64,000 nucleotides of DNA, from the NCBI RefSeq assembly GCF_021044935.1, contig NZ_JAJNMP010000001.1:1-64000 (forward strand), given 5' to 3'. Every line of letters starts with the position of its first letter. The stretch's first letter is position 1. A program made the translations under genes and the position numbers. This document shows, piece by piece, positions 15,191 through 31,962 of this stretch. This DNA is from Agromyces cavernae (GTDB taxonomy: Bacteria > Actinomycetota > Actinomycetes > Actinomycetales > Microbacteriaceae). The notes beneath the pieces were generated by a model that saw only the letters and a program-made list of their open reading frames with translations, searched no databases and was not told where the DNA came from.

Positions 15191-15263
15191 ACGTTCCATC
15201 CTGCCTGAGGTGGCCGCGGCGCGCCGTGTCGCCACCCCACAAAGGCGTAACGATCCGTTCGTC

Positions 15264-15311
15264 GGTCGAGTAGCGCCCGACGAAGGAGGACGCTGCGCTC
15301 GCTACTCGACC
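15264..15311. repeat. Dispersed palindromic repeat at hemL 3' end
   Basis: Perfect 12-base arms GGTCGAGTAGCG (15264-15275) and its complement (15300-15311) flank a 24-base loop. The element provides the last codons and the TAG stop of hemL and could fold in its transcript as a terminator or stabiliser. It belongs to the family seen at 11387, 16628 and 30332-31493. Confidence 0.75.
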
Positions 15312-16732
15312 GACGGCGGTGTGGCGGATGCCGCAGCCCGCGCCGCGGCGGGCAGGGCGTCGATGACGCGGCCGATGGCCGCCTCATCGTGCGCGGCCGT
15401 GACGAACCAGGCCTCGAACACCGACGGAGGCAGGGAGACGCCCGCGTCGAGCATCGCGTGGAAGAACGGGGCGTAGCGCCACGACTCCTGTCGCTGCACG
15501 GTCGCGTAGTCGCGCACCTCGCCGGCCGCCGCCTCGGCGCCGAACACGAAGCTGAACAGGTTGCCGGCGTGCTGCACGCGGTGCGCGACGCCCTCGGCGC
15601 CGAGCGCGTCGGACACGGCCGCGCTGATGGTCGCCGCGGTGGCGTCGAGGCGGTCGTACACCGAGTCGTCGGCCGCCCGCAGCGTCGCGATGCCGGCGGC
15701 GACCGCGACCGGGTTCCCCGAGAGCGTGCCGGCCTGGTACACGGGGCCGAGCGGCGCGAGGCGCTGCATGATCTCGGCGCGCCCGCCGAGCGCGGCGACC
15801 GGCATGCCGCCGCCGATGACCTTGCCGAACGTCATGAGGTCGGGCGTGTAGGCGGATGCCTCGTTGCGGGCCTCGAGCCCCCACCATCCGGCCGCCGAGA
15901 CGCGGAAGCCGGTGAGCACCTCGTCGCTGATGACGAGCGCGCCGTGGTCGTGCGCGAGCTCGACGAGCGCGCGGTTGAACCCGGGAGCCGGCGGCACGAC
16001 GCCCATGTTCGCCGCCGCGGCCTCGACGATGACGGCCGCGATGCGGTCGCCGTGCTCGGCGAACACTGCGGCGAGCGCGTCGAGGTCGTTGTAGGGCACG
16101 ACGAGGGTCAGGGCGGCGATGTCGGCGGGCACTCCGGCCGAGCCGGGCAGCGCGAACGTCGCGAGGCCCGAGCCGGCCTCGGCGAGCAGCCCGTCGGAGT
16201 GGCCGTGGTAGTGCCCGGCGAACTTCACGAGGAGGTCACGGCCGGTGAACCCGCGCGCGAGGCGGATCGCGCTCATGGTCGCCTCGGTGCCCGTCGAGAC
16301 GAGTCGCAGCTGCTCGACCGGGGCGACGCGGGCTTCGACGAGCTCGGCGAGCTCGGTCTCGGCCGGGGTCGACGAGCCGAACGAGAGGCCGCGGCTCGCG
16401 GCATCCGTCACCGCTTCGATCACGCGCGGATCGGCGTGACCCAGGATCGCAGGCCCCCACCCGGCGACGAGGTCGACGTACTCGCGCCCCTCGGCGTCGG
16501 TCACGTACGGGCCGCGCGCCGAGACGAGGAAGCGCGGTGTGCCGCCCACCGAGCGGAAGGCGCGCACGGGCGAGTTCACCCCGCCCGGGATCGCGGCCTG
16601 GGCGCGGGCGAACAGGTCGGCGTTGGTGGGTTGAGGAGGCGACGAAGGAGCCGTCTCGAAACCACGAGACGACGGTCGAGTGGGTTGAGGAGGCGACGAA
16701 GGAGCCGTCTCGAAACCCGGCGTCTCGGTCAT
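15302..16732 (-). CDS. hemL: Glutamate-1-semialdehyde 2,1-aminomutase
   Basis: Converts glutamate-1-semialdehyde to 5-aminolevulinate with PLP, the second step after HemA. The PLP lysine lies in [12 protein letters not shown], and [22 protein letters not shown] is the family's normal N-terminus. At 476 residues it is about 40 longer than usual because residues 5-37 are two copies of [13 protein letters not shown] joined by RPSSR, encoded by a repeat with a 54-base period (16628-16717). This insertion appears to separate the initiator MTETP from TNADLF. ATG at 16732 overlaps the hemB stop by four bases. The C-terminus (SVE, stop) is encoded by another dispersed repeat. The catalytic core is intact. 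Confidence 0.95.
16628..16717. repeat. Two 36-bp direct repeats inside hemL 5' end
   Basis: Identical 36-base units at 16628-16663 and 16682-16717, 54 bases apart (18 codons, so frame is kept). Each contains GGCGACGAAGGAGCCG and CGTCTCGAAACC and encodes [13 protein letters not shown] on the hemL strand. Confidence 0.85.
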
Positions 16733-17727
16733 TCCGTGTCTCCGTTCCGGATCCATTCGGCGAGCTCCGCGGCCCAGTAGGTGAGCACGGCGTCGGCGCC
16801 GGCACGGCGAATGCCCCGCATGGATTCGATGACCGCGCGCTTGCGGTCGATCCAGCCGTGCGCGGCGGCCGCCTCGATCATCGAGTACTCCCCCGAGACC
16901 TGGTACGCCCAGACGGGGACCTCGCTTGCGGCGGCGACGTCGGCGAGCACGTCGAGGTAGCTGCCGGCCGGCTTCACCATGACGACGTCGGCGCCCTCGT
17001 CGATGTCGATCATCGCCTCGCGCAACCCCTCGCGCCGGTTACCGGGGTCGAGCTGGTACGAACGACGATCGCCCTCGAGGGTCGACTCGACCGCGTCGCG
17101 GAACGGCCCGTAGTAGGCGGAGGCGTATTTCGCCGAGTACGCGAGGATCGCCGTGTCCGAGAACCCGGCGTCGTCGAGGGCGTCGCGCACGGCGGCCACC
17201 TGGCCGTCCATCATGCCGCTCAGGCCGAGCAACTCGGAGCCGGCGCGCGACTGCTCGAGCGCCATCGCCCGGTACCGCTCGAGGGTGGCGTCGTTGTCGA
17301 CGCGGCCGCGGTCGTCGAGCACGCCGCAGTGTCCGTGGTCGGTGAACTCGTCGAGGCAGAGGTCGGTCTGCACGACGAGACGGCCGGCGGATGCCTCGAC
17401 GGCGACCCTCGTCGCGACGTTGAGGATGCCGTCGGGGTCGGTGGCCCCCGAGCCGCGCGCGTCGCGCACCTCCGGGACGCCGAACAGCATCACGCCGCCC
17501 AGGCCGGCGGCCGCGGCCGCACCGACGGCGTCGGGCAGGCTCTCGAGCGAGTGCTGCACGACGCCCGGCATCGACGTGATCGGCACCGGGGCGCTCACGC
17601 CCTCGCGCACGAACACCGGCAGCACGAGGTCGGCGGGGTGCAGGCGGGTCTCGGAGACGAGCCGGCGCAACGCGGGTGTCTCACGGAGTCGACGCGGACG
17701 GACACGGGGAAGGGGCGTGGAACTCAC
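16729..17727 (-). CDS. hemB: Delta-aminolevulinic acid dehydratase (porphobilinogen synthase)
   Basis: Condenses two 5-aminolevulinates into porphobilinogen in the cytosol. The Schiff-base lysine segments are recognisable ([20 protein letters not shown], and [15 protein letters not shown]), and the metal-site region is [18 protein letters not shown]. Length is 332 residues, normal. The start is GTG at 17727, and a TAGGCT -10 box lies 6 bases upstream, so hemB-hemL have a leaderless promoter separate from hemD. The stop overlaps hemL by four bases. A 70-base repeat (17794-17863) separates it from hemD. Confidence 0.96.
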
Positions 17728-17733
17728 CCGGCA

Positions 17734-17739
17734 AGCCTA
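17734..17739 (-). promoter_or_regulatory. -10 box (TAGGCT) of hemB, leaderless
   Basis: TAGGCT on the minus strand, 6 bases before the GTG at 17727. Confidence 0.6.
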
Positions 17740-17793
17740 CGTGGCTCTCGCTGAGTGCGTCCTCGGGTGCGGGTCGGGCCGCGGACAGAGCCC

Positions 17794-17863
17794 GCGCAGC
17801 TCAGGAGAATTGCGTCGACACGGCCTGTGACGGGCCCATGGCGCCCATTTTCCTGAGTTGCGC
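17794..17863. repeat. Dispersed repeat B (CTCAGGAGAAT...TTTTCCTGAG), copy 1
   Basis: Outer arms GCGCAGCTCAGGAGAAT (17794-17810) and ATTTTCCTGAGTTGCGC (17847-17863) are imperfect inverted repeats around a 36-base middle. It lies between the hemD stop and hemB start. A second copy with the same ends and a different middle is at 54001-54068. Confidence 0.75.
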
Positions 17864-17876
17864 ACGCAAAACAGGG

Positions 17877-18692
17877 TCAGGCCAGGGCGGTCGCGGCGTC
17901 GACGACCGCGTCGATGAGCGACTCGGCCGTGCGCTCGCGCGCGATCACGTCGACGCGCAGGCCGACCTTCGCGGCATCGCTGCGGGTCTGCGGCCCGATG
18001 GCTGCCACCAGGATGGTCTCGGGGATCGGGCCGAGCTGCTGCTGTACCTGCTCGGCGACGCTGCCCGACGTGACGAGCACGGCGCGCACGTTGCCGGCAC
18101 GCACGTCGTCGGCGACCTTCGCCGACACGGGTACGCCGACGGTGCGGTACGCGACGACCGCCTCGACGTGGTGCCCCATGCGCTCGAGTCCGACGGAGAG
18201 CACCTGCTTCGCGATCGCCGAGCGCAGGGCGAGCACGCGCAGTCCGCGCACGCCGTCGGTCGCGGCCTCCCACTCCTCGAGCATGCCGCGGGCGGAGTTC
18301 TCTTCGGCGGGCACGATGTCGGCGTGGTACCCGGCGGCCACGAGGGCGGCAGCGGTGGTCTCGCCCACCGCTGCGACCTTCGTCGTCTCGGGGATCACGG
18401 CGCCGTACGACGCGAGCACGTCGACGGTCGTCGCACTCGTCACCGTCAGCCAGTCGAAGCCGCCGGCCGCGAGCTTCTCGAGTGCGGCGACGAGCGCGGG
18501 CTGGTCGTCGGCGGGAGCGAAGTTGATCATCGGCGCGATCACGGGCGATGCACCACGGGCGCGCAGCGCTGCCGCGACGCCGTCGCCCCAGGGCCCGCCG
18601 CGGGGCACGAGCACCCGCCATCCGGCGAGCGGCTTGCCGCCGCCCGAAGCGGGCAAGTTGATGGCACCCGTCATCGGTTCGAATTCAGTCAC
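17877..18692 (-). CDS. hemD: Uroporphyrinogen-III synthase
   Basis: Closes and isomerises hydroxymethylbilane to uroporphyrinogen III. The family is poorly conserved, but the two-domain pattern is clear: WRVLVPRGG at the start, DWLTVTSATTVDVL (about 97-110), KVAAVGETTAAAL (about 121-133), and a second domain with AVLVTSGSVAEQV (about 208-220) and LVAAIGPQTRSDA (about 230-242). At 271 residues it is normal. The GTG start overlaps the hemC stop by four bases, which with the position between hemC and hemB makes the call firm. Dispersed repeat B follows its stop. Confidence 0.93.
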   Translation of the reverse strand: MTEFEPMTGAINLPASGGGKPLAGWRVLVPRGGPWGDGVAAALRARGASPVIAPMINFAPADDQPALVAALEKLAAGGFDWLTVTSATTVDVLASYGAVIPETTKVAAVGETTAAALVAAGYHADIVPAEENSARGMLEEWEAATDGVRGLRVLALRSAIAKQVLSVGLERMGHHVEAVVAYRTVGVPVSAKVADDVRAGNVRAVLVTSGSVAEQVQQQLGPIPETILVAAIGPQTRSDAAKVGLRVDVIARERTAESLIDAVVDAATALA

Positions 18693-19645
18693 GGCTGCTC
18701 CTCAGGGGGCACGAGGTCGGCGGCACCGTTGCCGAGGAGTTCGGCGACGGCGCGGTCGGCGACGTCGCGTGCCGCGTCTGCCAGATCGGCGGCCGAGCGG
18801 CTGTCGGGGGTGGCCGCGTGCGAACTGGTGAGTCGGCGGCTCCCGTCGGCACTGTACACGCTCGCCGTCAGGAACAGAAGTTCGTCGTCGATGAAGGCGG
18901 TCGCCCCCACCGGCGCAGAGCACCCTGCCTCGAGCCCCGAGAGCACGAGGCGTTCGGCGAGCACGGTCGCGCGCGTGATGCCGTGGTCGATCGCCTCGAG
19001 CGCCCGCTCGAGATCGCGATCGCCACGCTCGCGCCGCACCTCGATGGCGAGTGCCCCCTGGCCGGGCGCGGTCGGCCAGTCGGAGAGCTCGAGGTGGTCG
19101 GTCGCGGCGTCGAGCCGGCCCAGACGGCTGAGGCCGGCGGCGGCGAGGATCACGGCGTCGAGCTCACCCGATTCGACCTTGCCGAGCCGGGTGTCGACGT
19201 TGCCGCGGATGTCGACGGCGACGACGTCGGGCCGGGCCGCACCGAGCTGCGCGATGCGGCGCGGCGAGCCCGTGCCGACCCGGGCACCCTCGGGCAGCGC
19301 CGCGAGGGTCAGGCCGTCGCGGGCGCAGAGCACGTCGCGCGCGTCGACGCGCTTGGGCACGGCGCCGAGCCGCAGGCCCGGGTGCTCGGCGGTGGGCAGG
19401 TCTTTCAGGGAGTGCACGACGACGTCGCACTCGCCGGCGAGCAGCGCTTCGCGCAGTGCCGCAGCGAACACGCCCGTGCCGCCGATCTCGGCGAGCGATG
19501 CCCGCGACGTGTCGCCGTGCGTCGTGATCGGCACGAGTTCGATCTCGGCCTTCGCGGCCTTGGCGATGCGGTCGGCGATCTGACGCGTCTGCGCCATCGC
19601 GAGTGCGCTGCCCCGCGTGCCGACCCTGATGACGGCCGCGGTCAT
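18689..19645 (-). CDS. hemC: Hydroxymethylbilane synthase (porphobilinogen deaminase)
   Basis: Polymerises four porphobilinogens into hydroxymethylbilane. The N-terminal signature RVGTRGSALAMAQT is at residues 6-19, and the dipyrromethane cofactor cysteine lies in SGLEAGCSAPVGA (about 240). HSLKDLPT (about 81-88) holds the catalytic aspartate region. The 318-residue length is normal. ATG at 19645 overlaps the hemH stop by four bases (ATGA), and its own stop overlaps hemD. A longer frame upstream belongs to hemH. Identity is secure. Confidence 0.96.
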   Translation of the reverse strand: MTAAVIRVGTRGSALAMAQTRQIADRIAKAAKAEIELVPITTHGDTSRASLAEIGGTGVFAAALREALLAGECDVVVHSLKDLPTAEHPGLRLGAVPKRVDARDVLCARDGLTLAALPEGARVGTGSPRRIAQLGAARPDVVAVDIRGNVDTRLGKVESGELDAVILAAAGLSRLGRLDAATDHLELSDWPTAPGQGALAIEVRRERGDRDLERALEAIDHGITRATVLAERLVLSGLEAGCSAPVGATAFIDDELLFLTASVYSADGSRRLTSSHAATPDSRSAADLADAARDVADRAVAELLGNGAADLVPPEEQP

Positions 19646-20727
19646 CGCGGTGTCGCCTCCGCAGCGCCTGCCGTATCGACGACCGCGCCGCCGGCGATGC
19701 GGCGGTGGTCGGGCCACGGGCCGAGCCCCGTCAGGTGCGGGCGTTCGGCGTCAGGCACGTCGTTCACTCGCTCGAGCACGAGGTCGACGAGGCCCGAGAC
19801 GTAGGCCGGGTGCACGCCCGGCGTCGGCACGCGACGCACCTTCAGGCCGTGCTCGCCGGCCGTCTCGACGGCCTCGTTGTCGAGGTCCCACATGACCTCC
19901 ATGTGGTCGGACACGAAGCCGAACGGCACGATGACGACCGCGTCGGTCAGGCCGCCCGTTGCGAGCTCGGCGATCGCGTCGTTGATGTCGGGCTCGAGCC
20001 ACGGCGTGCGCGGGTCGCCCGAGCGCGACTGGTAGACGAGCGACCAGGGCGATTCGGGCGCGGCCGCTTCATTGATGACGGATGCCACGGCCAGGTGCTG
20101 TGCGACGTATGCGCCGCCCTCACCGGTGCCGACGCGCTCTTCGAATCCCTCGGCCGAGGCGGTGGCCGCCGTGATCGGGATCGAGTGGGTGACGTACATG
20201 ATGTGCGTGCGCCCGGGGGCGACGCCCTCGGCCGCGAGCGAGGCAGCGGCATCCGTCACGCCCTCGATGAACGGCTGCACGAAACCGGGGTGATCGAAGT
20301 ACTCGCGCACCCGGTCGATCGCGACGCCGGTGCCGGCCGTCGCCTTCTCGTAGTCTTCGCGGTACTGGCCGACACCCGAGTACGACGTGTACGCGCTCGT
20401 GACGAGCCCGAGCAGCGTGGTGTGCCCCGCCGCTTCGGCTTCGCGCACGACGTCGCCGAAGTACGGCGCCCAGTTGCGGTTGCCCCAGTACACCGGCAGG
20501 TCGATGCCGCGCGCGGCGAGCTCGGCCTCGAGCGCGGCCTTCAGCTGCCGGTTCTGCTCGTTGATCGGGCTCACGCCGCCGAAGTGGCGGTAGTGGTGGG
20601 CGACCTCTTCGAGGCGCTCGTCGGGGATGCCGCGCCCCGCGGTGACGTTGCGCAGGAACGGGATGACATCGTCCTGGCCCTCGGGCCCGCCGAACGACGA
20701 CAGCAGGATCGCGTCGTAGTGCGCCAT
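19642..20727 (-). CDS. hemH: Coproporphyrin III ferrochelatase
   Basis: Inserts ferrous iron into the porphyrin. In bacteria that carry HemQ, as here, the substrate is coproporphyrin III and the product coproheme (the enzyme is also called CpfC). Landmarks are LLSSFGGPEGQDDVIPFLRNVTAG read in parts at residues 8-31, HYRHFGGVSPINEQNR (about 45-60), YWGNRNWAPYF (about 78-88), and YVTHSIPIT (about 185-193) with the iron-site histidine. Length is 361. ATG at 20727 shares one base with the hemQ stop. The position between hemQ and hemC supports the coproporphyrin-dependent pathway. Confidence 0.95.
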   Translation of the reverse strand: MAHYDAILLSSFGGPEGQDDVIPFLRNVTAGRGIPDERLEEVAHHYRHFGGVSPINEQNRQLKAALEAELAARGIDLPVYWGNRNWAPYFGDVVREAEAAGHTTLLGLVTSAYTSYSGVGQYREDYEKATAGTGVAIDRVREYFDHPGFVQPFIEGVTDAAASLAAEGVAPGRTHIMYVTHSIPITAATASAEGFEERVGTGEGGAYVAQHLAVASVINEAAAPESPWSLVYQSRSGDPRTPWLEPDINDAIAELATGGLTDAVVIVPFGFVSDHMEVMWDLDNEAVETAGEHGLKVRRVPTPGVHPAYVSGLVDLVLERVNDVPDAERPHLTGLGPWPDHRRIAGGAVVDTAGAAEATPR

Positions 20728-21464
20728 CACTGCAGCACCTCCACGAGCTCGGCGGTGGTGACGCGCCGGCCGGTGTAGAACGGCACCTCTTCGCGCACGT
20801 GGCGTCGCGCGTCGGTGGCGCGCAGGTCGCGCATGAGGTCGACGAGGTCGGTGAGCTCGTCGGCCTCGAGCGGCAGCAGCCACTCGTAGTCGCCGAGCGA
20901 GAACGACGCGACGGTGTTCGCGATGACGCCCTTGAACGCCGCACCGGCCCGTCCGTGCTCGGCGAGCATGCGCCCGCGCTCTTCGGGCGCCAGCAGGTAC
21001 CACTCGTAGCTGCGCACGAAGGGGTAGACGGTGAGCCACTGCTTGGGCTCGATGCCGCGCAGGAAGCCGGGCACGTGCTGCTTGTTGAACTCGGCGTCGC
21101 GGTGCACGCCCATCGCGTTCCAGGTGGGCAGCAGCGCACGGAACAGGCGCGAACGGCGCAGCTCGCGGATGGCCCACTGCAGCCCCTCGGCCGTGGGCCC
21201 GTGCAGCCACAGCATCACGTCGGCGTCGGCGCGCAGCCCCGAGACGTCGTAGATGCCGCGGAGGGTGACCCCCTCGTTCTCGACGAGGACGATGATGTCG
21301 TCGAGCTCGCGCACGAAGCGGGGCACGTCGTGCCCGTCGAGGTCGTCGGGTCGGGACGGATCACGTCGGAGCACGGCGAAGACCGTGAACCCCTCGGGTG
21401 ACTCGCCGGATTCGGATTCTGGGCGGTGCGCGTCGGCTGCCGCTTCGGCAGCGGGGGTAGACAT
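20727..21464 (-). CDS. hemQ: Coproheme decarboxylase (chlorite dismutase family)
   Basis: Oxidatively decarboxylates coproheme to heme b, the last step of the coproporphyrin-dependent route (also called ChdC). [17 protein letters not shown] contains the catalytic tyrosine, and [11 protein letters not shown] holds the proximal heme histidine. At 245 residues it matches actinobacterial HemQ. The start is ATG at 21464, preceded by GGAGACTGGAGAC. It is first in the hemQ-hemH-hemC-hemD run, with overlapping or abutting genes throughout. Its presence, with HemY-type oxidase at 29042, rules out the classical protoporphyrin order. Confidence 0.95.
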
Positions 21465-21553
21465 GTCTCCAGTCTCCCCCTTTCCCGCCGAACGGCCAAA
21501 AGCGATCGCGGATGACCCGTGGCCGGCCCCGGGCGCCGGCACGGGTCATCCGA

Positions 21554-22726
21554 TCAATGCACGAGGCGCGTGAATCGGAACGCGGCGAAGCCCTCGATCG
21601 GCAGGATCTCGGTGCCCGAGAACCCGGCATCGCGCGCATAGCGGTCGAGCGTCGACGGCCGCATCACGGTTCCCGTGCCGACCGAACCGGGCGTCGAGAG
21701 ACCGTCGGGCAGGCACATCAGGATGCTGTACCCGTACATGACGCGCTCGACGTCGTCGCCGTCGGGAGCGAACGCCTCGGCGACCGCCTCGTCCATGATC
21801 ACGACCTCGCCGTCGGGCTTCACGGCCCGCCTGACCGACCTGAGCACCTCGACCGGGAACGGCATGTCGTGCAGCGCCTCGAACACGAACGCCGCGTCGA
21901 AGACGGCCTCCTGCGGCAGCCCCTCGCCCGCGACGTGGTGGAACCGCACCCGGTCGGCGACGCCCGCCTGCTCGGCGTGGCGGCGCGCGGCGACGACCGA
22001 TTCAGCGTCGACGTCGAAGCCCTCGACGCGCGCCGACGGATACGCCCTGGCGAGCGCGATCGACGACCAGCCGTGCCCCATGCCGATGTCGGCGAGGCGT
22101 GCTCCGGGCCGCGAGAGCACGTCGTGCAACGGAGCGACGCTCGCGAGCGCGTCGCCGAGCCGCTGCAGGAACCACGGCCGGTTGATGTCGCCCTGCCCCC
22201 ATCGGGCCTCGTCGCCGAGCTGCGCCCACGAGACGCCGCCGCCCGAGCGGTATGCGTCGAGCAGCGCGCCGAGCTGCGCGCCGGCCGCGGCGACGAAGCG
22301 GCCGAGCGGGGAGACGTAGTCGAGCGAGTCGGGGTTCACGAGGGGATCGGCGTGCGCCGGCGGCAGCGCGAATCGGCGGGCGGATGCCGCAGCCTCGGCA
22401 TCGTCGACCGTGAGGATGCCGTACACCGCCTGCTGCTCGAGCCACTCGCGGGCGTAGCGCTCCTGGGTGCCGGTGCGCTCGGCGAGGGTGGGCGCATCGA
22501 GCGGCCCCTCGTCGGCGAGCGCGCGGTACCAGCCGAGCCGGTCGCCGAGGTAGATGCTCATCATCTCGAAGGCGCCGAGGGTCGCGCCGAATACGCGATC
22601 CGCGAAGGCCGTGGTCGCGGCGTCGGTGTCGGTGTCGGGGTCGCGCCCGGTGTCGGGGTCGCGCCCGGTGTCGTGGTCGCGCCCCGTGTCGGGCGAGCCT
22701 GTGCCGTCGTGCTGATCCGTCGTCAT
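21554..22726 (-). CDS. SAM-dependent methyltransferase with repetitive N-terminus
   Basis: A 390-residue class I methyltransferase. After a helical N-terminal domain of the winged-helix/dimerisation type (about 40-150), the SAM-binding glycine loop is RLADIGMGHGWSSIA (about 204-218), followed by VEGFDVD and FVFEALHDMP. The first 37 residues are a simple repeat based on DTGRDPDTGRD, encoded by tandem 18-base units at about 22627-22690, and are probably disordered. ATG at 22726 has GAAGGAG upstream. The substrate is unknown. It lies next to a GntR regulator on the same strand. Confidence 0.8.
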   Translation of the reverse strand: MTTDQHDGTGSPDTGRDHDTGRDPDTGRDPDTDTDAATTAFADRVFGATLGAFEMMSIYLGDRLGWYRALADEGPLDAPTLAERTGTQERYAREWLEQQAVYGILTVDDAEAAASARRFALPPAHADPLVNPDSLDYVSPLGRFVAAAGAQLGALLDAYRSGGGVSWAQLGDEARWGQGDINRPWFLQRLGDALASVAPLHDVLSRPGARLADIGMGHGWSSIALARAYPSARVEGFDVDAESVVAARRHAEQAGVADRVRFHHVAGEGLPQEAVFDAAFVFEALHDMPFPVEVLRSVRRAVKPDGEVVIMDEAVAEAFAPDGDDVERVMYGYSILMCLPDGLSTPGSVGTGTVMRPSTLDRYARDAGFSGTEILPIEGFAAFRFTRLVH

Positions 22727-22761
22727 CGACGGCTCCTTCCATGCGGCCCGGCGCTCGCGCG

Positions 22762-23436
22762 TCAGGCGTCGATGAGGAGTCTCGTGGAGTGCTCGAGGTG
22801 CTCGCGCACGGCGTCGCCGCCGCGCGTGGGCAACGCGTCGAGCAGGGCGCGGTGCTCCTCGATGAGGGTGTCGAGCGTGTAGTGCGGGCGCACGTGCAGC
22901 AGGAACAGCAGCAGTTCACTGCCCAGCGCGGCATGCGCCTCGATGATGCGAGGACTGTCGGATGTCGCGACCAGCGCCCGGTGGAAGTCGGCGTGCACGC
23001 GCTCGACCTCGAGCCAGTCGACGTCGTCGGCGCGGGTCGCTGCGCTGTCGACGGCGAGCGCATCGAGCCGATCGATCGCGGCGCGGGCGGGCGCGAGGGC
23101 GGCGTCGGGCCAGTCGTGGCCGAAGCGCTCGCCCGCGATGCGCACGGCCTCGACCTCGAGCGCCGCGCGCAGTTGCTGCAGCGCGATCACCTCGTCGCGC
23201 CCGAAGCTCGCGACGCGCACGCCCCGGAACGTCTCGGCGACCGCGAGACGTTCGCCGACGAGCCGCTGGAACGCCGCGCGCACGGTGTGGCGCGACACGT
23301 CGTACCGAATGGCGGCGGCCTCCTCGCGCAAGGGCTCGCCGGGGGCGAGCACCCCGCTCAGGATGTCGGCGCGCACCGCCGCCGCGACCCGGTCGACCGC
23401 GGTCGCGGCGGCCTCGGCGGTGCGAGACGTGGGCAT
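22762..23436 (-). CDS. GntR-family regulator (FadR subfamily)
   Basis: A 224-residue GntR regulator: winged helix at about 12-75 (ILSGVLAPGEPLREEAAAIRYDVSRHTVRAAFQRLVGE, recognisable in parts) and an all-helical FCD effector domain with metal-binding residues in VHADFHRALVATSDSPR (about 145-161) and a final HLEHSTRL. FCD regulators respond to organic acids or sugar acids. It precedes the methyltransferase by 35 bases on the same strand and may control it; the DUF3618 gene lies upstream. The exact start is uncertain by a few codons. Confidence 0.88.
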   Translation of the reverse strand: MPTSRTAEAAATAVDRVAAAVRADILSGVLAPGEPLREEAAAIRYDVSRHTVRAAFQRLVGERLAVAETFRGVRVASFGRDEVIALQQLRAALEVEAVRIAGERFGHDWPDAALAPARAAIDRLDALAVDSAATRADDVDWLEVERVHADFHRALVATSDSPRIIEAHAALGSELLLFLLHVRPHYTLDTLIEEHRALLDALPTRGGDAVREHLEHSTRLLIDA

Positions 23437-23464
23437 CGGGACATCCGCTCTGGTGGAACCGGGA

Positions 23465-24170: not shown

Positions 24171-24189
24171 CGCGTGATCACCTCGGTTC

Positions 24190-24651
24190 TCAGGAGTCGG
24201 ATGCCGCGGGCTTCGAGCCGCGCTTCGCGGCCGGCTTCGCGGCCGGCTTCGCCGCGGGTCTCGCCGCGTTCGCCGCGGTCTCGGCGGTCTGGTCGATCAC
24301 GTCGTCGAGCGCGTCGGCGGCGGTGTCGACTGCGGACTTCGCGGCGCGAGCACTCTTGGCAACTCCCTGCTTCGCCGACTTCGCGGCGCTGCTCACGTCG
24401 GTCTTCGTGGCGCCGCTGCCGCGAACGGTGTTGCCGATGAGCGTCTTGACACCGTCGAGCACGGTGTCGGAGAGATCGCCGACCTTGCTCGCGGCGAACT
24501 CCTTCACCGTGCCCACGCCCTGCTGAACGGTCGGCGTGTTCCACACGCCCTCGGCCGCCCGCTTGATCTGCTCGTAGCGCTCGCGACCGGCACGAGTGCC
24601 GAGCACGTACCCGACGCCGAGTCCGACGACGAAGAGGATCTTGCCCTTCAT
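24190..24651 (-). CDS. YtxH-like protein with Ala/Lys-rich tail
   Basis: A 153-residue protein. The N-terminus is one glycine-rich membrane helix ending LGTRAGRERYEQIKR (residues about 5-32), typical of YtxH-like proteins. The rest is charged and helical, finishing in an Ala/Lys/Pro-rich histone-like tail (repeated KPAA units). ATG at 24651 is preceded by GGGGAGATGGGG. It heads an operon with the holin-like and DUF3618 genes. The function is unknown; the tail could bind nucleic acid or cell-wall polymer, which is only a guess. Confidence 0.75.
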   Translation of the reverse strand: MKGKILFVVGLGVGYVLGTRAGRERYEQIKRAAEGVWNTPTVQQGVGTVKEFAASKVGDLSDTVLDGVKTLIGNTVRGSGATKTDVSSAAKSAKQGVAKSARAAKSAVDTAADALDDVIDQTAETAANAARPAAKPAAKPAAKRGSKPAASDS

Positions 24652-24867
24652 GTGCACCCCATCTCCCCTGTGCTCATCACAACGACTGTTCCAGCGTAGA
24701 CCCCGGGCGAAGGGGCGCAAGGGGGTTGCGGCGAAATATTCCGTTTCGGCCATGCGACGGGTACGGCCGGGTGGCACGGATCATCCGGCCTGCTTCCGAC
24801 GTGGATTCCGACCAGTCGTGACAGGATGTGGCCGTGGGCAACCCGCCGACCGAGGATGAAGCGCGAC

Positions 24868-25590
24868 ATGACGATCGAGAGTGAGCATCGCGGCTCGGAC
24901 TCGCCCTACGTGACTCGCATCTGGCGAGGTCGCGCCTCGGGCGCCGAGACGATGACGTCAGTCGCAACCTCGAACTGGGAACTGGTGTTCTGGGAGGAGG
25001 ACGGCGTCGTGCACGCCGGGGCCCGCGGGCCCGAGACGGCCGCCTCTCGCGCCGAGGTCGACGGCGAGTCCGCCTCATTCGGAATCACGTTCGCCCACGG
25101 TGCTTCGATGCCGCACCTGCCGATCGCGGGGATCGTCGACGGCGGGGTCGAGAGTGCGCACGTGTCAGGCCGCACCTTCATGCTGCGCGGCGAGGACTGG
25201 GAGATCCCCGACTTCGACAACGCCGAGCAGTTCGTGCAGAAGCTCGTTCGAGCGGGCGTGCTCACGCGCGACCCCCTGGTCGACGATGTCGTCTGGGGCG
25301 GTGCCGCTCGAGTCGGCTCCCGTTCGGTGCAACGGCGCGTGGCGACCGCGACCGGCCTGACGCAGGGGGCGATCCGGCAGATCGACCGCGCCCGTCAGGC
25401 CGCCCTGCTGCTCGCCGAGGGACTCGCCCCGCTCGACGTCGTGCATCGGCTCGGCTTCTACGACCAACCCCATCTGGCGAGGGCCCTGCAACGGTTCATC
25501 GGTCGTACGGCGACCCAACTGCAGCGACCGCAGCCGTCGTCCGATCCCCTGTCGCTTCTGTACAAGCCCGAGGACCCCGCGGCTTCATAA
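24868..25590 (+). CDS. AraC-family transcriptional regulator
   Basis: A 240-residue protein with a C-terminal AraC-type DNA-binding domain. The second helix-turn-helix is best seen (LAPLDVVHRLGFYDQPHLARALQRFIGRTATQLQR, in parts at about 193-225), and the first surrounds RSVQRRVATATGLTQGAIRQI. The N-terminal half resembles the DUF6597-type sensing domain. ATG at 24868 is chosen because GAGG lies upstream; ATG at 24856 and GTG farther up are alternatives. It precedes a hydrolase and a reductase on the same strand and may regulate them. Confidence 0.8.
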   Translation: MTIESEHRGSDSPYVTRIWRGRASGAETMTSVATSNWELVFWEEDGVVHAGARGPETAASRAEVDGESASFGITFAHGASMPHLPIAGIVDGGVESAHVSGRTFMLRGEDWEIPDFDNAEQFVQKLVRAGVLTRDPLVDDVVWGGAARVGSRSVQRRVATATGLTQGAIRQIDRARQAALLLAEGLAPLDVVHRLGFYDQPHLARALQRFIGRTATQLQRPQPSSDPLSLLYKPEDPAAS

Positions 25591-25643
25591 CCTGAAGCCG
25601 TCGCGGTGATGGCCACCGCACCTGAGACGAACGGAACACTCAC

Positions 25644-26459
25644 ATGGAACACGGCACTGTCACGTCGGCCGACGGCACCACCATCGCCTACACGGCGTGG
25701 GGCGACGGCGAACCGATCGTCATCATCGACGGCGCGACCGCATACCGCGCCACCACCCCCGAGAACGCGGCGACCGCGGAACTCCTCGCCGAGCGATTCC
25801 GGGTGATCAATTACGACCGGCGGGGCCGGGGCGAGAGCGGCGACACCGCGCCCTACGCGGTGGAACGCGAGCTCGAAGACCTCGCGGCGATCATCGCCGG
25901 CCCGGCCGGCGGACGCCCGGCGACGGTGTTCGCCTGGTCGTCGGGCGGGTTCCTCGCGCTGAACGCGGCGCAGGCCGGCGTGCCGATCGCGCGCCTCGCC
26001 CTGTTCGAGCCGCCCGCCGTCGTCGACGACTCGCGTCCGCCGCTGCCCGACGACTACGTCGAACTGCTCGACGCGGCGATCGCCGCCGGACGCCCCGGGG
26101 ACGCCGCGGAACTGTTCCTCACCGCCGCGGTGTTGATGCCCGACGAGTTCGTCGCCGGCATGCGCTCGAGCGAGATGTGGCCGGGACTCGAGGCGGTCGC
26201 GCACACGATCGCCTACGACGGGCGGAACATCGGCGACGCCATGTCGGGCGAGCCGCTGGACACCGACCGCTGGGACCGGGTCGACGTGCCCGTACTGGTC
26301 ATGCACGGCACCGGAACCTGGCCGTTCCTCGCGACGGGCGCCCAGGCGGTCGCCGAGGCGCTGCCGACCGCCACCCTGCGCGCGGTGCCGGGCGAGAACC
26401 ACGGCACCACGGCCGACGTGCTCGCTCCCGAGCTCAGCGCGTTCATCGAGGCGGCCTGA
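25644..26459 (+). CDS. Alpha/beta hydrolase
   Basis: A 271-residue alpha/beta-hydrolase fold protein. The nucleophile elbow is FAWSSGGFLAL (about 93-103; Ser in WSSGG), the oxyanion region is EPIVIIDGATAYR, and the catalytic histidine is likely in PGENHGTTAD (about 250). The motif NYDRRGRGESGD (about 56-67) is typical of the family. The substrate is unknown. The reductase gene starts two bases after its stop, so they are co-transcribed. Confidence 0.85.
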   Translation: MEHGTVTSADGTTIAYTAWGDGEPIVIIDGATAYRATTPENAATAELLAERFRVINYDRRGRGESGDTAPYAVERELEDLAAIIAGPAGGRPATVFAWSSGGFLALNAAQAGVPIARLALFEPPAVVDDSRPPLPDDYVELLDAAIAAGRPGDAAELFLTAAVLMPDEFVAGMRSSEMWPGLEAVAHTIAYDGRNIGDAMSGEPLDTDRWDRVDVPVLVMHGTGTWPFLATGAQAVAEALPTATLRAVPGENHGTTADVLAPELSAFIEAA

Positions 26460-26461
26460 CC

Positions 26462-27025
26462 ATGGGGCGCCTCGTGGTCACCGAGTTCATCTCGCTCGAC
26501 GGAGTCGTCGAGGCTCCCGGCGGCGAGGACTTCAAGTACCCGAACTGGAGCTTCGCGTTCGATCGCGGACCCGACGGAGAACGCTTCAAGGAGGAGGAGG
26601 CGCTCGGGGCCGCCGCCCTGCTGCTGGGCCGGGCGACGTACGAAGGGTTCGCCGAGGCGTGGCCGCAGTACGAGGGCGAACTCGCCGACAAGTACAACGG
26701 GATGCCGAAGTACGTGGTCTCGAGCACCCTCACCACGCCCACCTGGAACAACACGACGGTGCTCTCGGGCGACCTCGTCGACGAGGTCACCCGCCTCAAG
26801 CGGGACATCGACGGCGAGATCTCGGTGCCCGGCAGCATCCGCCTCGCGCAGTCGCTCATCGCGCACGACCTCGTCGACGAGATCCGCCTCATGTCGTTCC
26901 CGGTGATCCTCGGCCACGGGCGACGGCTGTGGAGCGACACGCCCGACAAGAGCGCGTGGGAGCTCGTCGACGCGACGACCTATGGAGACGGCGTGCTGGT
27001 CACGGCGTACCGGCGGGCCGGCTGA
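26462..27025 (+). CDS. Dihydrofolate reductase-like (RibD C-terminal domain) protein
   Basis: A 187-residue RibD_C-fold reductase-like protein. Landmarks are [17 protein letters not shown] at the N-terminus, [16 protein letters not shown] (about 52-67) and [24 protein letters not shown] in parts (about 120-143). Such stand-alone proteins are numerous in actinobacteria and their substrate is unknown, though NADPH use is expected. ATG at 26462 is two bases after the hydrolase stop. The 3' end overlaps the convergent SDR gene by 26 bases. Confidence 0.85.
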
Positions 27026-27950
27026 CGGCGGGGCGCACACCGACGAGGCGCTCCGACTCGAGCCACAGCCGGTGTGCATCGTCCACGTCGGTCAGCGGCG
27101 CCCACGGCTCCTGCAGTACGGGCGCGCCGCCGACGACGTGCCTCGGCCCGTAGAACCGGTCTCCTCGCGCCCGCGGGTCGGTCGCCGCCATCAACGCGGG
27201 CAGTGCCGCGCTGTCGACGGTCCCGGTGATGCCCAGACGGGACAGGAGGCGGATGATGCGGCGACCGCCGCGGTCCTTCGTGCGCCCCATCTCGGGTCGG
27301 GCGGCGAGCAGGCTGGTCGGCGACACGCCGGGGTGCGACATGTTGCTGCTCACACCCCAGCCCTCGCGCCGGCTGCGGGCGTCGAGCCCGCGCGCGAACA
27401 GCCCGACGGCGATCTTCGACTGGGCATACGCCTTCATGCCCACGTAGTCCTCCTCCCAGTTCAGGTCGGCCCAGTTGATGCCGCCGCGGCGCGCGGCGAC
27501 GCTCGTCTGGTGCGTAACCCGGGCCCCGCCCTCGCGCAGCAGGGGGAGCAGCCCGAGCGTCAGGGCGAAATGCCCGAGGTGATTGGTACCGAACTGCAGT
27601 TCGAACCCGTCGTTCGTGGTCTGCCGGTCGGGTGGCGTCATGACGCCGGCGTTGTTGACGAGGATGTCGATGGGGCGCCCCTCGGTGACGAGCGTTTCGA
27701 CCAGCGCCGACACCGAGGCCAGCGAGGACAGGTCGACGAGACGGGTCGACACGGCGGCGCCCCGCGCCTCGTCGCGGATCTGCTCGGCGACCTTCTCGCC
27801 CTTGGGGGGCGTCCGCACGGGCATCACCACGTCGGCTCCGGCCTGCGCGAGGCGAGTCGCGATCACGCGACCGATACCGTCACTCGCACCGGTGACGACG
27901 GCGAGCTTGCCGGTGAGGTCGGGAATCTGGAATGCAGGGGTGCGAGGCAT
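27000..27950 (-). CDS. Short-chain dehydrogenase/reductase
   Basis: A 316-residue SDR oxidoreductase of the retinol dehydrogenase-like group. The NAD(P) loop is [14 protein letters not shown] (about 18-31), NNAGVMTPP follows at about 95, the catalytic serine is in [10 protein letters not shown], and YAQSK provides Tyr and Lys (about 180-184). ATG at 27950 gives a normal N-terminus. It converges with the RibD-like gene, sharing 26 bases at the 3' ends. An XRE/MmyB regulator lies 126 bases upstream on the same strand; MmyB-type regulators often sit beside an SDR they control. Confidence 0.9.
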
Positions 27951-28075
27951 GAGACGAGTCCTCCAGGCTGGGACGAGTGGTCTGGTTCGTACGTGACCAT
28001 GCTCGCTCCCGTTCGCGGAGTCATTCAGTGCCCGTCGATCCACTGACTGCGGATCCACCCCTCCGGTGAAGCGCT

Positions 28076-28915
28076 CTACGCGAGTCGCTGCGCGCCGATC
28101 ACCGCGAGCAGTCGCAGCTTCTCGTAGCTCTCGCTCCCGGGCTCCGCCGTGTAGACGAGGAGGTGATGCGACTGCTCGGGGTCGAGGAGCGTCTGACAGC
28201 TCAGTTCCAGTGGCCCGACTTCCGGATGGAGGAAGCGCTTGAGATCGGGGGGTCGTACCCCGACCTCGTGAGCGGCCCAGATCTCACGGAACTCGGCGCT
28301 CCCAGCGAGCAGGAGGTCTGCGAGGTGCGCGGCCCACGACTCGGGTCCGCGGAGCGCGACGAGTTCACGCAGCCCTGAGCCGTAGACGCGTGAGAGCACC
28401 GTCTGCTCCTCCGGCGGATACGGTTCGCGTGCGGCCGGGTCGGTGAACCATCGATACCCGACGCTCCGGTCGGGCCCCTGACGTTTGGATGCGTCACCCG
28501 TGAGCGCGACCCCCATCGGGGTCTGTCGCAGCGTCTCACCGAGTTCGGTGACGATCTCGGCGGGGGTGTCCTGCAGTCGGTCGAAGATCCGTAGCATCCC
28601 CGGGCTGATGTGCTCGCTGGATGGCCCGCGGGCGGGCGGATTGTGGCCGGCCAGACGGAAGACATGATCTCGCTCGCCGAGCGACAGATGAAGCCCCTGT
28701 GCGATCGCAGCGATCATCTGTTCCGACGGGTGGGGGCCGGTCGCACGTTCGAGACGGGCGTAGTAGTCGGTCGACATGTGACACAACGCGGCCACTTCTT
28801 CACGGCGAAGACCGGCGGTGCGCCGACGCAGCCCGCGCGCCAGCCCGACATCTTCCGGCTGCAACGACTCCCGCCGGTGGCGCAGGAACGCAGCCAGCCC
28901 TTCCCGATCGATCAT
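28076..28915 (-). CDS. XRE-family regulator with MmyB-like ligand domain
   Basis: A 279-residue regulator. The helix-turn-helix is at about 25-65 ([29 protein letters not shown]), followed by a PAS-like MmyB ligand-binding domain (residues about 100-270) with ending [21 protein letters not shown]. MmyB domains are thought to bind fatty acids. ATG at 28915 gives the usual family N-terminus ([18 protein letters not shown]) and has GGGGAA upstream; ATG at 28930 is an alternative. The SDR gene downstream on the same strand is the likely target. Confidence 0.88.
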
Positions 28916-29041
28916 CGGTTCCCCGCCCATTCCGTCTCACCGCCGGTCGCCATCGCCTCATCGTTCCTACCACCGCAGGCGGATGCCTGCCACGGCCCGT
29001 GGGTCCGCCCCGGGGAGTTCGGGCGTCGGGGACCGCCGTGA

Positions 29042-30703
29042 CTACGCGTCGCCGGCGACGGACACCCGTCGATGCCTGATGCGGTGCGCGACCTCGAGCG
29101 CGTGCGGCACCACCGACGCGAGCCCGGTGCCCGCGACCCACGACCCGGTGACCTCGAGGCCGGGTTGTGCGGCGACGACGTCTTCGAGGGCGCGCACGCG
29201 GTCGCGCTGCCCGAGCGCGGCGTGCGAGAGGGCGTCGCGCCACGCGCTGCGGCCTGCGGCACGGAGCATCCGTGCATCGAGGTCGACGCCGAGGATCGTA
29301 CTCGCGTCGGCGAGCGCGAGCGCCGCGACGTCGTCGTCGGGGCGGCCGTCGAGCGGGTTCGACGTTCCCAGACGACCATACGAGAGGCGGATGACCTGGC
29401 GGCCCTCGGCGGCCTCCCCGAGCCACGCCCATTTCGCACTCGAGTGGGTGAGCGCCTTCGCGGTGACGCCGGGCGTGCCGGCGGCGACGAGCACGCCGGT
29501 TCCGCGCGGCGCGGCGGCGAGCGCGGGCGCGTCGAGCACGAGGGTCACGAGTTCGACGGATGCCGCTGCCGGCCATTCGTCGGCCGATCGCCAGCCTTCG
29601 ACGGCCTCGCCGACCAGGCCGAGCGAGGTGTGGGCCGGCGCGGCGAGCACGACGTCGAGTGCGGTGAACTCGATGGTGGCCGCGTCGGCGCCGCCCACGA
29701 CGTCGTCTGCGCCGAGTGCCGCACCTGGCACGGCACCGACGTCGCCCTCGGCAGTTTCGCCGGCGTCTGCCTCGGCACCACGGCGGACAGCGGTCACCCG
29801 CCAGGCCTCGACCTCGCCGCCGTTCGCTTCGCCGACGGGAGCCTCGACCTGCACGCGGGTCAGCCCGGTGACCTCGGCACCCGTCATCACCGTGACGTCG
29901 AAACGCGCGAGTTCGGCGACGAGCGTGTCGACCAGGCGGTGCATGCCGCCGCGGATGCCGCGGACCGCTGCACCGGCCCTGCGTCCCTCGACGAGGTCGG
30001 CGACGCCGCCCGAGAGCGAGCCCATGCGCGTCATCGCCTGGTTGAGGCCGGGCGCCACGACGTCGAGGTCGAGGTCGTCGGGGTCGGTCGAGTACACGCC
30101 CGCCGAGATCGGGGTGACCAGCTTGTCGAGCACGGCGGTGCCCATGCGCGAGCGGACGAGCTTGCCGAGGCTGTGCGAGCGGCCGATCGTCAGGATGGGC
30201 ATGATGCGGTCGAGGTAGGCGCGCCACGCGCCGCCCCACCCGATGATGCGGCGCACGTCGTCGCCGAGCGGGTTCGCGGGGATGCCGAGCATGCCGGTCT
30301 TCGGCAGCGGCGCGGCATTCACCTGTGTTGCTCGAGGAGCGCCCGACGGAGTCGGACGCGTCTCGAGACCGCGCTCACGCCCCCACACCAGCCACGCGCC
30401 CGCCGGGTTCGGATCGACGATGTCGTCGGCGAGCCCGAGCCGCTCGAGCAGTTCGGCGACCGAGCCGCCGCGCATCGCGAACGACTCCGCGCCGCTGTCG
30501 AGGGTGAGGCCGTCGAGCTCGATGCGGCCGACGCACCCGCCGAGTTCGTCGCGTCGTTCGAGCACGGTGACGCGCAGGCCGACCCTCGCGCACTCGAGCG
30601 CGGCGACGAGGCCGGCGACGCCGCCGCCCACCACCACGACGTCGGGTCTCGAGACGCGTCCGACTCCGTCGGGCGCTCCTCGACCAGCGGATGAATCGCT
30701 CAC
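29042..30703 (-). CDS. hemY: Coproporphyrinogen III oxidase (HemY/CgoX type)
   Basis: FAD enzyme that oxidises coproporphyrinogen III to coproporphyrin III. The FAD loop is VVVVGGGVAGLVAALE (22-37), preceded by an unusual 17-residue stretch (SAGRGAPDGVGRVSRP) encoded by a dispersed repeat. A second repeat copy encodes GLETRPTPSGAPRA near 112-125. An Ala/Asp/Gly-rich insert lies around 320-370. These raise the length to 553, against about 470 in relatives. The C-terminal ALEVAHRIRHR helix and GLASVVPHALE are typical. The GTG start overlaps hemE by four bases. The core looks intact. Confidence 0.93.
   Translation of the reverse strand: MSDSSAGRGAPDGVGRVSRPDVVVVGGGVAGLVAALECARVGLRVTVLERRDELGGCVGRIELDGLTLDSGAESFAMRGGSVAELLERLGLADDIVDPNPAGAWLVWGRERGLETRPTPSGAPRATQVNAAPLPKTGMLGIPANPLGDDVRRIIGWGGAWRAYLDRIMPILTIGRSHSLGKLVRSRMGTAVLDKLVTPISAGVYSTDPDDLDLDVVAPGLNQAMTRMGSLSGGVADLVEGRRAGAAVRGIRGGMHRLVDTLVAELARFDVTVMTGAEVTGLTRVQVEAPVGEANGGEVEAWRVTAVRRGAEADAGETAEGDVGAVPGAALGADDVVGGADAATIEFTALDVVLAAPAHTSLGLVGEAVEGWRSADEWPAAASVELVTLVLDAPALAAAPRGTGVLVAAGTPGVTAKALTHSSAKWAWLGEAAEGRQVIRLSYGRLGTSNPLDGRPDDDVAALALADASTILGVDLDARMLRAAGRSAWRDALSHAALGQRDRVRALEDVVAAQPGLEVTGSWVAGTGLASVVPHALEVAHRIRHRRVSVAGDA
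30332..30370. repeat. Dispersed repeat A inside hemY (copy 1)
   Basis: 39 bases beginning TCGAGGAGCGCCCGACGGAG and ending CGTCTCGAGACC. It is in frame in hemY and encodes the insert near residues 111-125. The same unit recurs inverted at 30645-30685 and direct at 31453-31493. Confidence 0.85.
30645..30685. repeat. Dispersed repeat A at hemY 5' end (copy 2, inverted)
   Basis: 41 bases, the reverse complement of the unit at 31453-31493, with ends GGTCTCGAG and CTCGACC. It encodes hemY residues about 7-19. Confidence 0.85.
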
Positions 30704-31962
30704 GCGGCGCCCGCTTCGTGCACGAGTTCGACCACGCGGGTGAGCACAGTCGGGTCGGTCTCGGGCGGCACGCCGTGCCCGAGGTTGAACACGTGCGCGG
30801 GCGCGACGGCGCCACGACGCAGCACCTCGCGCACCGCCGCCTCGAGCACGGGCCACGGGGCTGCCAGCAGCGCCGGGTCGAGGTTGCCCTGCAGCGGAAC
30901 GCCCGCGCCGACGCGCGCCGACGCGACATCGAGCGGCACCCGGTAGTCGACGCCGACGGTGTCGACGCCGATGCCGCCCATGGCGGCGAGCAGCTCTCCC
31001 GTGCCCACGCCGAAGTGCACGACCGGCACGGCTCGCGTCTCGGCCGTCGGTCGAGTAGCGAGCGCAGCGAGCGTATCGAGACCACTCGCCGGGTCTCGAT
31101 ACGGCGCTTGCGCGCCTACTCGACCGCCGGCAGTCTCGTATTCGAGGTCGTGCACGAAGCTCAGCGCGCGTGCCGACGCGGGTGCGACGTGCGCCTCGTA
31201 GTCGGCGAGCGAGAGCGCGCCGGCCCACGAGTCGAACAGCTGCGCGGCGGATGCCCCGGCCAGCACCTGGGTGCGCAGGAAGCGCCCGGTGAGCTCGGCC
31301 GTCCACTGCATGAGCGCACGCCACGCGCCGGGGTCGGCGTGCATGAGGGTGCGGGCGGCGAGGTGATCCTTCGAGGGGCCGCCCTCGGTGAGGTACGCCG
31401 CGAGGGTGAACGGGGCGCCCGCGAAGCCGATGAGCGGCGTGCTTCCGTCGCTGGTCGAGGAGCGCCCGACGGAGTCGGACGCGTCTCGAGACCCGGCGGG
31501 CGCGGTCGTGTTCAGTTCGGCGATCGTGCGCTGCACGGCTTCGGTGATCGGGCCGGATGTCTCGTCGAGGTGCGCCGGGTCGATCGCGGTCAGTTCGGCG
31601 ACGGCAGCGGCATCCGCATAGCCCTTCGAGAAGACGGGTCCGCGACCAGGCTGGATCTCGACGTCGACGCCGACGAGCTTCAGCGGCACCACGATGTCGC
31701 TGAAGAAGATGCCCGCGTCGACCCGGTGGCGACGCACCGGCTGCAGCGTGATCTCGCTCGCCATCGCCGGGTCGAGGCAGGCGTCGAGCATGCGCGTGCC
31801 GACCCGCAGGTCGCGGTACTCGGGCAGCGACCGGCCCGCCTGTCGCATGAACCACACCGGTGTCGTGTCGGAGCGCTCGCCGCGATACGCGCGCACGAGT
31901 CGCGAGTCGGAGGTGAGGCCTGAGGAGAGCGGATGCTGCGGGGAGAGGATCACGCATGACAT
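30700..31962 (-). CDS. hemE: Uroporphyrinogen decarboxylase with two repeat-derived inserts
   Basis: Removes four carboxyls from uroporphyrinogen III to give coproporphyrinogen III. Signatures are intact: RQAGRSLPEYR (40-50), GFAGAPFTLAAY (179-190), FDSWAGALS (243-251) and NLGHGVPPETD (393-403). At 420 residues it is about 60 longer than usual. The excess is residues 157-173 (RDASDSVGRSSTS), encoded by repeat A at 31453, and residues 276-310, encoded by an inverted repeat pair at 31049-31125. Both inserts fall in places expected to be loops. ATG at 31962 is used; GTG at 31953 is possible. The stop overlaps hemY by four bases. It diverges from the gene at 32221. Confidence 0.93.
   Translation of the reverse strand: MSCVILSPQHPLSSGLTSDSRLVRAYRGERSDTTPVWFMRQAGRSLPEYRDLRVGTRMLDACLDPAMASEITLQPVRRHRVDAGIFFSDIVVPLKLVGVDVEIQPGRGPVFSKGYADAAAVAELTAIDPAHLDETSGPITEAVQRTIAELNTTAPAGSRDASDSVGRSSTSDGSTPLIGFAGAPFTLAAYLTEGGPSKDHLAARTLMHADPGAWRALMQWTAELTGRFLRTQVLAGASAAQLFDSWAGALSLADYEAHVAPASARALSFVHDLEYETAGGRVGAQAPYRDPASGLDTLAALATRPTAETRAVPVVHFGVGTGELLAAMGGIGVDTVGVDYRVPLDVASARVGAGVPLQGNLDPALLAAPWPVLEAAVREVLRRGAVAPAHVFNLGHGVPPETDPTVLTRVVELVHEAGAA
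31049..31125. repeat. Inverted pair of GGTCGAGTAG-type repeats inside hemE
   Basis: Unit 1 (31049-31083) starts GGTCGAGTAGCG and ends TATCGAGACC. Unit 2 (31091-31125) is its inverted relative, starting GGTCTCGATA and ending CTACTCGACC. The pair is open in the hemE frame and adds about 33 residues. Confidence 0.85.
31453..31493. repeat. Dispersed repeat A inside hemE (copy 3)
   Basis: 41 bases from GGTCGAGGAGCGCCCGACGG to CGTCTCGAGACC, identical apart from orientation to 30645-30685. Encodes the hemE insert SRDASDSVGRSST. Confidence 0.85.

Follow-up and report, generated by a model that had tools for sequence, protein, structure and literature searches.

Intragenic repetitive extragenic palindromic (REP) sequences are known in many species, often in repair genes (PMC3733652), and Rickettsia palindromic elements (RPEs) are known to lie in frame in Rickettsia (PMC2229807, PMC10969869); the short elements RPE-4 and RPE-6 are CGTC REPs (these and the other papers below are cited for the portions of them that were available). 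In-frame palindromes are therefore already known as a phenomenon. Here we analyse the first 64,000 nucleotides of contig NZ_JAJNMP010000001.1 of Agromyces cavernae (assembly GCF_021044935.1; this whole stretch is called the window), in which an earlier note had described short repeats within the heme-biosynthesis genes hemL, hemY and hemE. The inserts in these genes are very probably copies of a high-copy REP-like palindromic element of Microbacteriaceae, which mostly adjoins gene ends and often occurs as inverted pairs. Copies lie both inside and outside genes, those inside genes are open in the coding frame, and many relatives are without given copies. We did not find the family itself in print, including in searches aimed at Microbacteriaceae and Actinobacteria and a word search of the Agromyces aureus genome paper, most subscription papers being out of reach, and the actinobacterial words searched for are absent from the main text of PMC3733652.

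The repeats of hemL, hemY and hemE belong to a single family of imperfect palindromes of 24–43 nt, GGTYGAG[T/G]AG-hairpin-CGT[A/C]TCGARACC. The pattern GGTYGAGKAGN{4,34}TCGARACC has 239 matches (a few of them overlapping) in the 4.07-Mb A. cavernae genome and none in the reversed control, so that the repeat is well beyond chance. REPs and bacterial interspersed mosaic elements (BIMEs) measure about 20–40 nt and usually exceed 100 copies per genome, a range into which the present repeat falls. Over two hundred of these short hairpin-forming repeats are present in the A. cavernae genome, and they look like a new, structurally odd family within a known kind of bacterial repeat. Its GGTC form is present in 51 of 60 Agromyces genomes, at 0 to 338 matches each (4 control matches over all 60); with a stricter pattern, the GTAG form was found in 73 of the 299 genomes of Microbacteriaceae, representing 32 of 85 genera. 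The nearest named relative by a hemE search is Agromyces humatus (HemE identity 92%), and its collinear contig carries 29 copies; many A. cavernae copies have a repeat at the matching A. humatus place, and some intergenic ones do not. Contig C4 of A. cavernae contains a dense run of repeats at 673602–713910, including three identical tandem units at 713212–713321.

In the window, the heme genes and their copies are arranged as follows.

15302..16732, minus strand: hemL (glutamate-1-semialdehyde aminotransferase, 476 residues; Pfam PF00202, 3.1e-70)
15264..15311, no strand assigned: truncated composite element at the 3' end of hemL, made up of two repeats facing each other in opposite orientation (partial repeat matches, read from the sequence)
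16629..16663, plus strand: palindromic GGTT..AACC-type repeat within the region coding for the HemL N-terminus, read antisense as a 12-residue peptide (from the sequence)
16683..16717, plus strand: second, identical hemL repeat at a 54-bp period, with the same 12-residue peptide (from the sequence)
29042..30703, minus strand: hemY (flavin-dependent porphyrinogen oxidase as named in the earlier note, 553 residues; Pfam PF01593)
30329..30370, plus strand: repeat with one degenerate end inside hemY, peptide GLETRPTPSGAPRA (from the sequence)
30645..30685, minus strand: 41-nt repeat at the hemY N-terminus, peptide GRGAPDGVGRVSRP, ahead of the FAD-binding motif (from the sequence)
30700..31953, minus strand: hemE (uroporphyrinogen decarboxylase; gene call; Pfam PF01208, 7.8e-104)
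31049..31083, plus strand: first half of the hemE inverted doublet, antisense peptide GLDTLAALATRP (from the sequence)
31092..31125, minus strand: second half of the hemE inverted doublet, peptide GRVGAQAPYRDP (from the sequence)
31453..31493, plus strand: 41-nt repeat in hemE, peptide GSRDASDSVGRSST (from the sequence)

The repeats named in the earlier note, namely the hemL pair, the 41-42-mers of hemY and hemE and the inverted pair of hemE, are thus all present and open in the coding frame. The three near-identical 41-42-mers of hemY and hemE each use a different reading frame and yield peptides unrelated to one another, GRGAPDGVGRVSRP, GLETRPTPSGAPRA and SRDASDSVGRSST, which argues that it was DNA that was inserted. 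At the other end of hemL, the stop codon TAG (minus strand, 15304–15302) is supplied by the GAG-TAG of the truncated repeat, as is reported for GTAG REPs elsewhere.

For its structure and its placement in genes, 198 of the 239 matches were examined: every match listed on contigs C2, C3 and C4 (to 689137), every GGTT-type match in the rest of the genome, and those GGTC-type matches in the rest of the genome that fell within a retrieved stretch, with overlapping long matches (such as that at 91242) and matches containing others left out. The repeat unit is GGTY-GA-G-xA-G, followed by a variable stem that often closes on a GNA triloop, followed by C-G-Ty-TC-GA-RACC, in which Y pairs with R and x with y. 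The fourth base (Y) is complementary to its partner in 195 of the 198 copies (109 C-G, 86 T-A), and x to y in 193 (110 G-C, 83 T-A). Among 29 distinct 35-mers, x and y are paired in all 29 (once as U-G), and the structure with GGTY-RACC, GA-TC, xA-Ty and the inner stem pairs 89.9% of cells; its covariation score of 0.260 compares with a mean of 0.091 after shuffling and no more than 0.067 for slid versions. The hairpin structure is therefore maintained through compensatory changes, as is the stem of REPs and BIMEs. An alternative register with G7 paired scores lower (0.186), with two pairs left unpaired in 9 of the 29, and was rejected. Tandem G.A/A.G occurs at two inner positions in 12 of the 29.

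By our loop test, the best central loop is a triloop in 96 copies, 4 nt long in 45, 5 nt long in 20 and absent in 37. GNA accounts for 53 of the 96 triloops, compared with 7.5% of triloops (112/1487) after core shuffling, and for 26 of 39 triloops among 45 hand-picked elements from other genera; the string CGNAG is found in 138 of the 198 copies, a count made without a control. GNA loops are especially stable in DNA. Since the duplex is nearly symmetric, the GNA loop distinguishes one strand. Folding with RNA energies places 90 of 91 copies under the mean of mononucleotide shuffles, which is weaker evidence.

Relative to predicted genes, 134 of the 198 copies lie outside, 16 overlap a gene edge, 35 are buried within a gene by 150 nt or more (deep copies hereafter), 11 are near a C-terminus and 2 near an N-terminus. 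Genes were called with a codon-usage gene finder trained for this analysis; it trims start sites, so that the two hemL copies and the hemY N-terminal copy were scored as outside genes. Judging from start codon choice, these three are probably coding: for the conserved N-terminal motifs to be intact, translation would have to begin further upstream, where the hemL ATG overlaps the hemB stop (ATGA) and the hemY GTG overlaps the hemE stop (GTGA). Adding them raises the coding count from 35 deep copies in 20 predicted genes to 38 copies in 22 genes, and leaves 131 outside. In these apparently intact genes, the copies would lengthen the protein by a loop or a tail. The earlier note's reading of a small non-autonomous element that coding sequence tolerates is supported by the genome-wide matches, by these 38 coding copies among the 198 and by relatives without the inserts. 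Outside genes, many copies are directly 3' of genes, and only 3 of 99 clusters fall between divergent genes compared with 90 of 332 gaps (p=1e-8; gaps of at least 60 nt in the same retrieved stretches). The 68 pairs within 60 bp comprise 51 '+-', 1 '-+' and 16 direct pairs. Together, the mostly extragenic position, the avoidance of divergent gaps and the inverted pairs are features of REPs and BIMEs. Among the 35 deep copies, orientation to the host gene is even (17 sense, 18 antisense).

We compared the three heme enzymes with their relatives. In an alignment of 32 HemE rows (31 of the retrieved Agromyces loci and the window), insert 1 (the copy at 31453..31493) is present in four, A. cavernae, A. 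humatus, Agromyces italicus and Agromyces bauzanensis, and insert 2 in A. cavernae only; no independent hemE insertions besides these two were seen across the 32 rows. HemE retains the residues that are invariant across 39 aligned relatives. It is longer than usual, as had been noted, by about 38 residues (412 versus 374 in several Agromyces) and not by 60. In an AlphaFold2 model (mean pLDDT, the predicted local distance difference test score, 86.5; 266 of 412 residues at 90 or above), the inserts at about 149–162 and 272–297 are predicted to lie within low-confidence loops, with pLDDT below 50 at 149–163, 272–277 and 291–293. In this predicted model, insert 1 is located between a helix and a strand, and insert 2 between a short strand (266–269, after a helix) and the strand 300–303. 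In triosephosphate isomerase (TIM) barrels, helix-to-strand loops are on the side opposite the active site. Solved structures exist for the HemE family.

HemL was compared across 30 loci taken from 60 genomes. In 4 of the 30 rows (2, 3, 1 and 1 copies) the repeat pattern precedes the HemL core, and HemL is indeed longer than relatives without the repeat, by about 32 residues and not 40. Some HemL N-termini (e.g. L235 and L237) have REP-like peptides without the DNA pattern. In two further Agromyces genomes (L229, L239), the N-termini are extended by tandem ALRRAQGTSGAQGTS-type peptides, apparently of another repeat family. For HemY, 27 loci were compared, 6 of which yielded no HemY; the comparison has 22 rows, one of them (L016) in a misread frame. 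The internal insert occurs in 1 of the 22 rows, and amounts to 14 residues (42 nt) more than A. humatus has. An excess of 80 residues in HemY did not hold up: its 553 residues fall among the 535–581 of readable relatives (starts roughly set), and about 28 of them are coded by repeats. The hemE-hemY junction of A. humatus (C9, about 473428–473584) carries a different inverted-repeat element of ~100 bp, GTTGCTCGTTCAGGGGATT ... AATCCCCTGAACGAGCAG, near the position of the A. cavernae hemY N-terminal copy.

The hosts of deep copies are of mixed function. By Pfam, they include HemE, RecF, a glycosyltransferase fusion, a methyltransferase, a CofC-like protein, a molybdopterin oxidoreductase, an aromatic amino acid lyase (which we take to be HutH), a phosphotransferase-domain/aminotransferase fusion, two twin-ATPase ABC proteins, an NAD-kinase-like protein, beta-galactosidase, a Clp-type ATPase, MurB, a thiamine pyrophosphate enzyme, enoyl-CoA hydratase, LigD, a LysR regulator, a DUF3418 helicase and an open reading frame with two ABC permease stretches. 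In the last of these (498 residues, L121:2202–3698) the repeat follows the first permease stretch, and two genes may have been joined through it. By reading frame, the 35 deep copies divide into antisense-0 (15), sense-0 (10), sense-2 (5), antisense-1 (2), sense-1 (2) and antisense-2 (1). The antisense-0 frame, giving Pro-rich linkers of the form G[F/L][E/D]T...P[Q/R]P, is above expectation, whether this is set at one sixth (p=2e-4) or at one fifth (p=0.002), and codon phase 0 in either orientation accounts for 25 of the 35 (p=5e-6).

The favoured frame also recurs in RecF and HemL. Among 120 listed RecF relatives of 7999, the loop before GPHRDD carries a REP-type peptide in 24 (13 forms), the rest of the protein in none, by a peptide pattern drawn up after reading the loops; a doublet form is seen in 6 of the 120. 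This RecF loop is a hot spot, in which the listed relatives have many different Ser/Ala/Asp-rich sequences besides REP-type peptides. In the Clp-family linker, REP-like peptides were seen by eye in 3 of 12 readable rows (A. cavernae, L267 and L275); the 12 are the sense rows of 30, the other 18 being antisense shadow frames that were ignored. The genome has at least two Clp-family proteins, the host itself (L199) and another, 50% identical to it, at C2:1043612. The frame bias and one frame recurring in RecF and HemL are the two hints that coding copies, beyond being tolerated, are selected, as the earlier note had offered.

We propose that a single-stranded DNA hairpin is either the form in which the element spreads or the reason why it does, as the GNA loops on one strand and the random orientation to genes would suggest. 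In-frame copies in surface loops, linkers and termini would survive, and other insertions would be removed; survival presumably reflects hydrophilic and flexible peptides, predominantly of a G[F/L][E/D]T..P-rich or a GR[G/V]-rich kind, and the heme enzymes would be ordinary bystanders. A REP-associated tyrosine transposase (RAYT) as mobiliser was rejected: RAYT / IS200 transposases (PF01797) gave no hits in the 60 Agromyces genomes, E. coli being among the 5 of 14 controls that were positive. The mobiliser may thus have been lost, be unrelated or too divergent, or be nonexistent.

Several observations count against this proposal. As no transposase was detected, mobility is deduced from dispersal and empty sites, and the empty sites are imprecise, the loops variable and target duplication not seen. 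A triloop is the best central loop in fewer than half of the copies, and DNA nearest-neighbour folding of three copies on both strands was not clearly better than dinucleotide shuffles (z scores of the six single strands 0.15, 0.18, -1.24, -2.11, -0.15 and -0.01). Translation of the inserts is presumed from open frames within Pfam-domain hosts. The deep copies include doublets and local duplicates and are not independent, so that the p values for frame bias are optimistic, and the excess in codon phase 0 may reflect target-site preference instead of selection on the peptide. An excess of GGAG-type repeats among coding copies (p=0.018 on contig C2) disappeared over the 198 copies (p=0.57).

Spread by replication slippage, local duplication and gene conversion instead of transposition is the strongest of the alternatives and is compatible with a REP-like origin of the inserts, but it is a tentative explanation at best. 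Local duplication clearly contributes, since hemL has two tandem units in A. cavernae and three in A. humatus; the near-identical neighbours in hemY and hemE, the tandem run on contig C4 and the failure to detect a RAYT point the same way. However, more than 200 copies at unlinked sites, some of them empty in the closest relative, need a dispersal step too. It is rather improbable that the repeats are chiefly RNA hairpins that stabilise or terminate transcripts at gene ends, with coding copies as by-products, a reading also compatible with a REP-like family. Such a role would fit the many copies just 3' of genes and the avoidance of divergent gaps, as in other REPs (PMC3733652), but not the random orientation of deep coding copies or a GNA loop carried by one strand of the repeat and especially stable as DNA, and no known RNA family was matched at the Rfam gathering score in window positions 15000–32000.

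A preference of the element for the hem cluster, which the earlier note had put forward, we consider very unlikely. The 16-kb span holds 6 copies versus 0.95 expected (P=0.0005), or four clusters (P=0.007), but it was picked after the copies had been seen. With the 500-bp merge distance used for the expectation, there are two clusters versus 0.73 expected (Poisson P ~0.17), and the 6 copies in 64 kb versus 3.8 expected are unremarkable (P=0.18). Furthermore, 19 other predicted genes, unrelated in function, hold deep copies, and HemE insert 1 occurs in so few of the aligned rows. Least probable of all is that the extra peptides go back to old, functional protein sequence, with a DNA similarity that arose secondarily, since, despite the REP-type peptides that some HemL N-termini have in the absence of the exact DNA pattern and the one frame recurring in RecF, a single DNA gives unrelated peptides in three frames in hemY and hemE, most HemE, HemL and HemY rows of relatives are without extra peptides, and two thirds of the copies (131/198) lie outside genes after the hemL/hemY correction.

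A REP-like element dispersed around gene ends thus remains our preferred explanation of the inserts. More speculatively, and as one joint claim that we hold to be possible but doubtful, the repeats might form a RAYT-independent actinobacterial REP superfamily, defined by a tag that is base-paired, by two bulges that are conserved and by a GNA triloop, that spreads as single-stranded DNA via some enzyme and is a standing source of protein linkers, the G[F/L][E/D]T..P[Q/R]P frame being retained repeatedly across species (RecF loop, HemL N-terminus, Clp linker) and coding use being shaped by selection.

The family extends in-frame coding palindromes, described in the literature consulted mainly from Rickettsia, proteobacteria and a few other phyla, to an actinobacterium, a single genome of which has 22 predicted host genes. 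The insertions are natural ones in well-studied enzymes (HemE, RecF, MurB, HutH and LigD), several with insert-free orthologues, and allow direct tests of how inserts are tolerated, how the frame is chosen and where protein linkers come from. They also pose the question of which agent spreads a REP family where a RAYT was not found.

Like REP doublets forming hairpins (REPINs), the Agromyces repeats are short palindromes that occur as inverted pairs (PMC3116915, PMC2817692). REPINs are associated with a RAYT, whereas a Y1_Tnp/RAYT gene was undetected in the 60 Agromyces genomes, where a lost enzyme or one divergent from PF01797 is possible. The GTAG- and CGTC-tagged intragenic REPs (Di Nocera et al., 2013, PMC3733652) are likewise small palindromes of high copy number with head-to-head dimers predominant, lie mostly downstream of genes, provide TAG as a stop codon, and have copies in genes including repair genes. 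In these REPs, however, the tag is terminal and outside base pairing (PMC3733652), whereas the Agromyces GxAG is internal with x paired. The Agromyces repeat also has an extra outer arm, GGTY/RACC, with conserved bulges, and its triloops are often GNA, whereas many loops of GTAG/CGTC REPs fit TY or CMA (PMC3733652). We therefore class it as REP-like and not as a GTAG-superfamily REP, the tag being paired and internal and a RAYT not found. Finally, the Agromyces repeats resemble RPEs (Ogata et al.; PMC2229807, PMC10969869, PMC3733652) in being palindromes in frame in unrelated conserved proteins, but they are distinct from the classical RPEs, which are 105–146 bp long and found in Rickettsia, whereas the Agromyces repeat is 24–43 nt long, is read in several frames and belongs to a different phylum.

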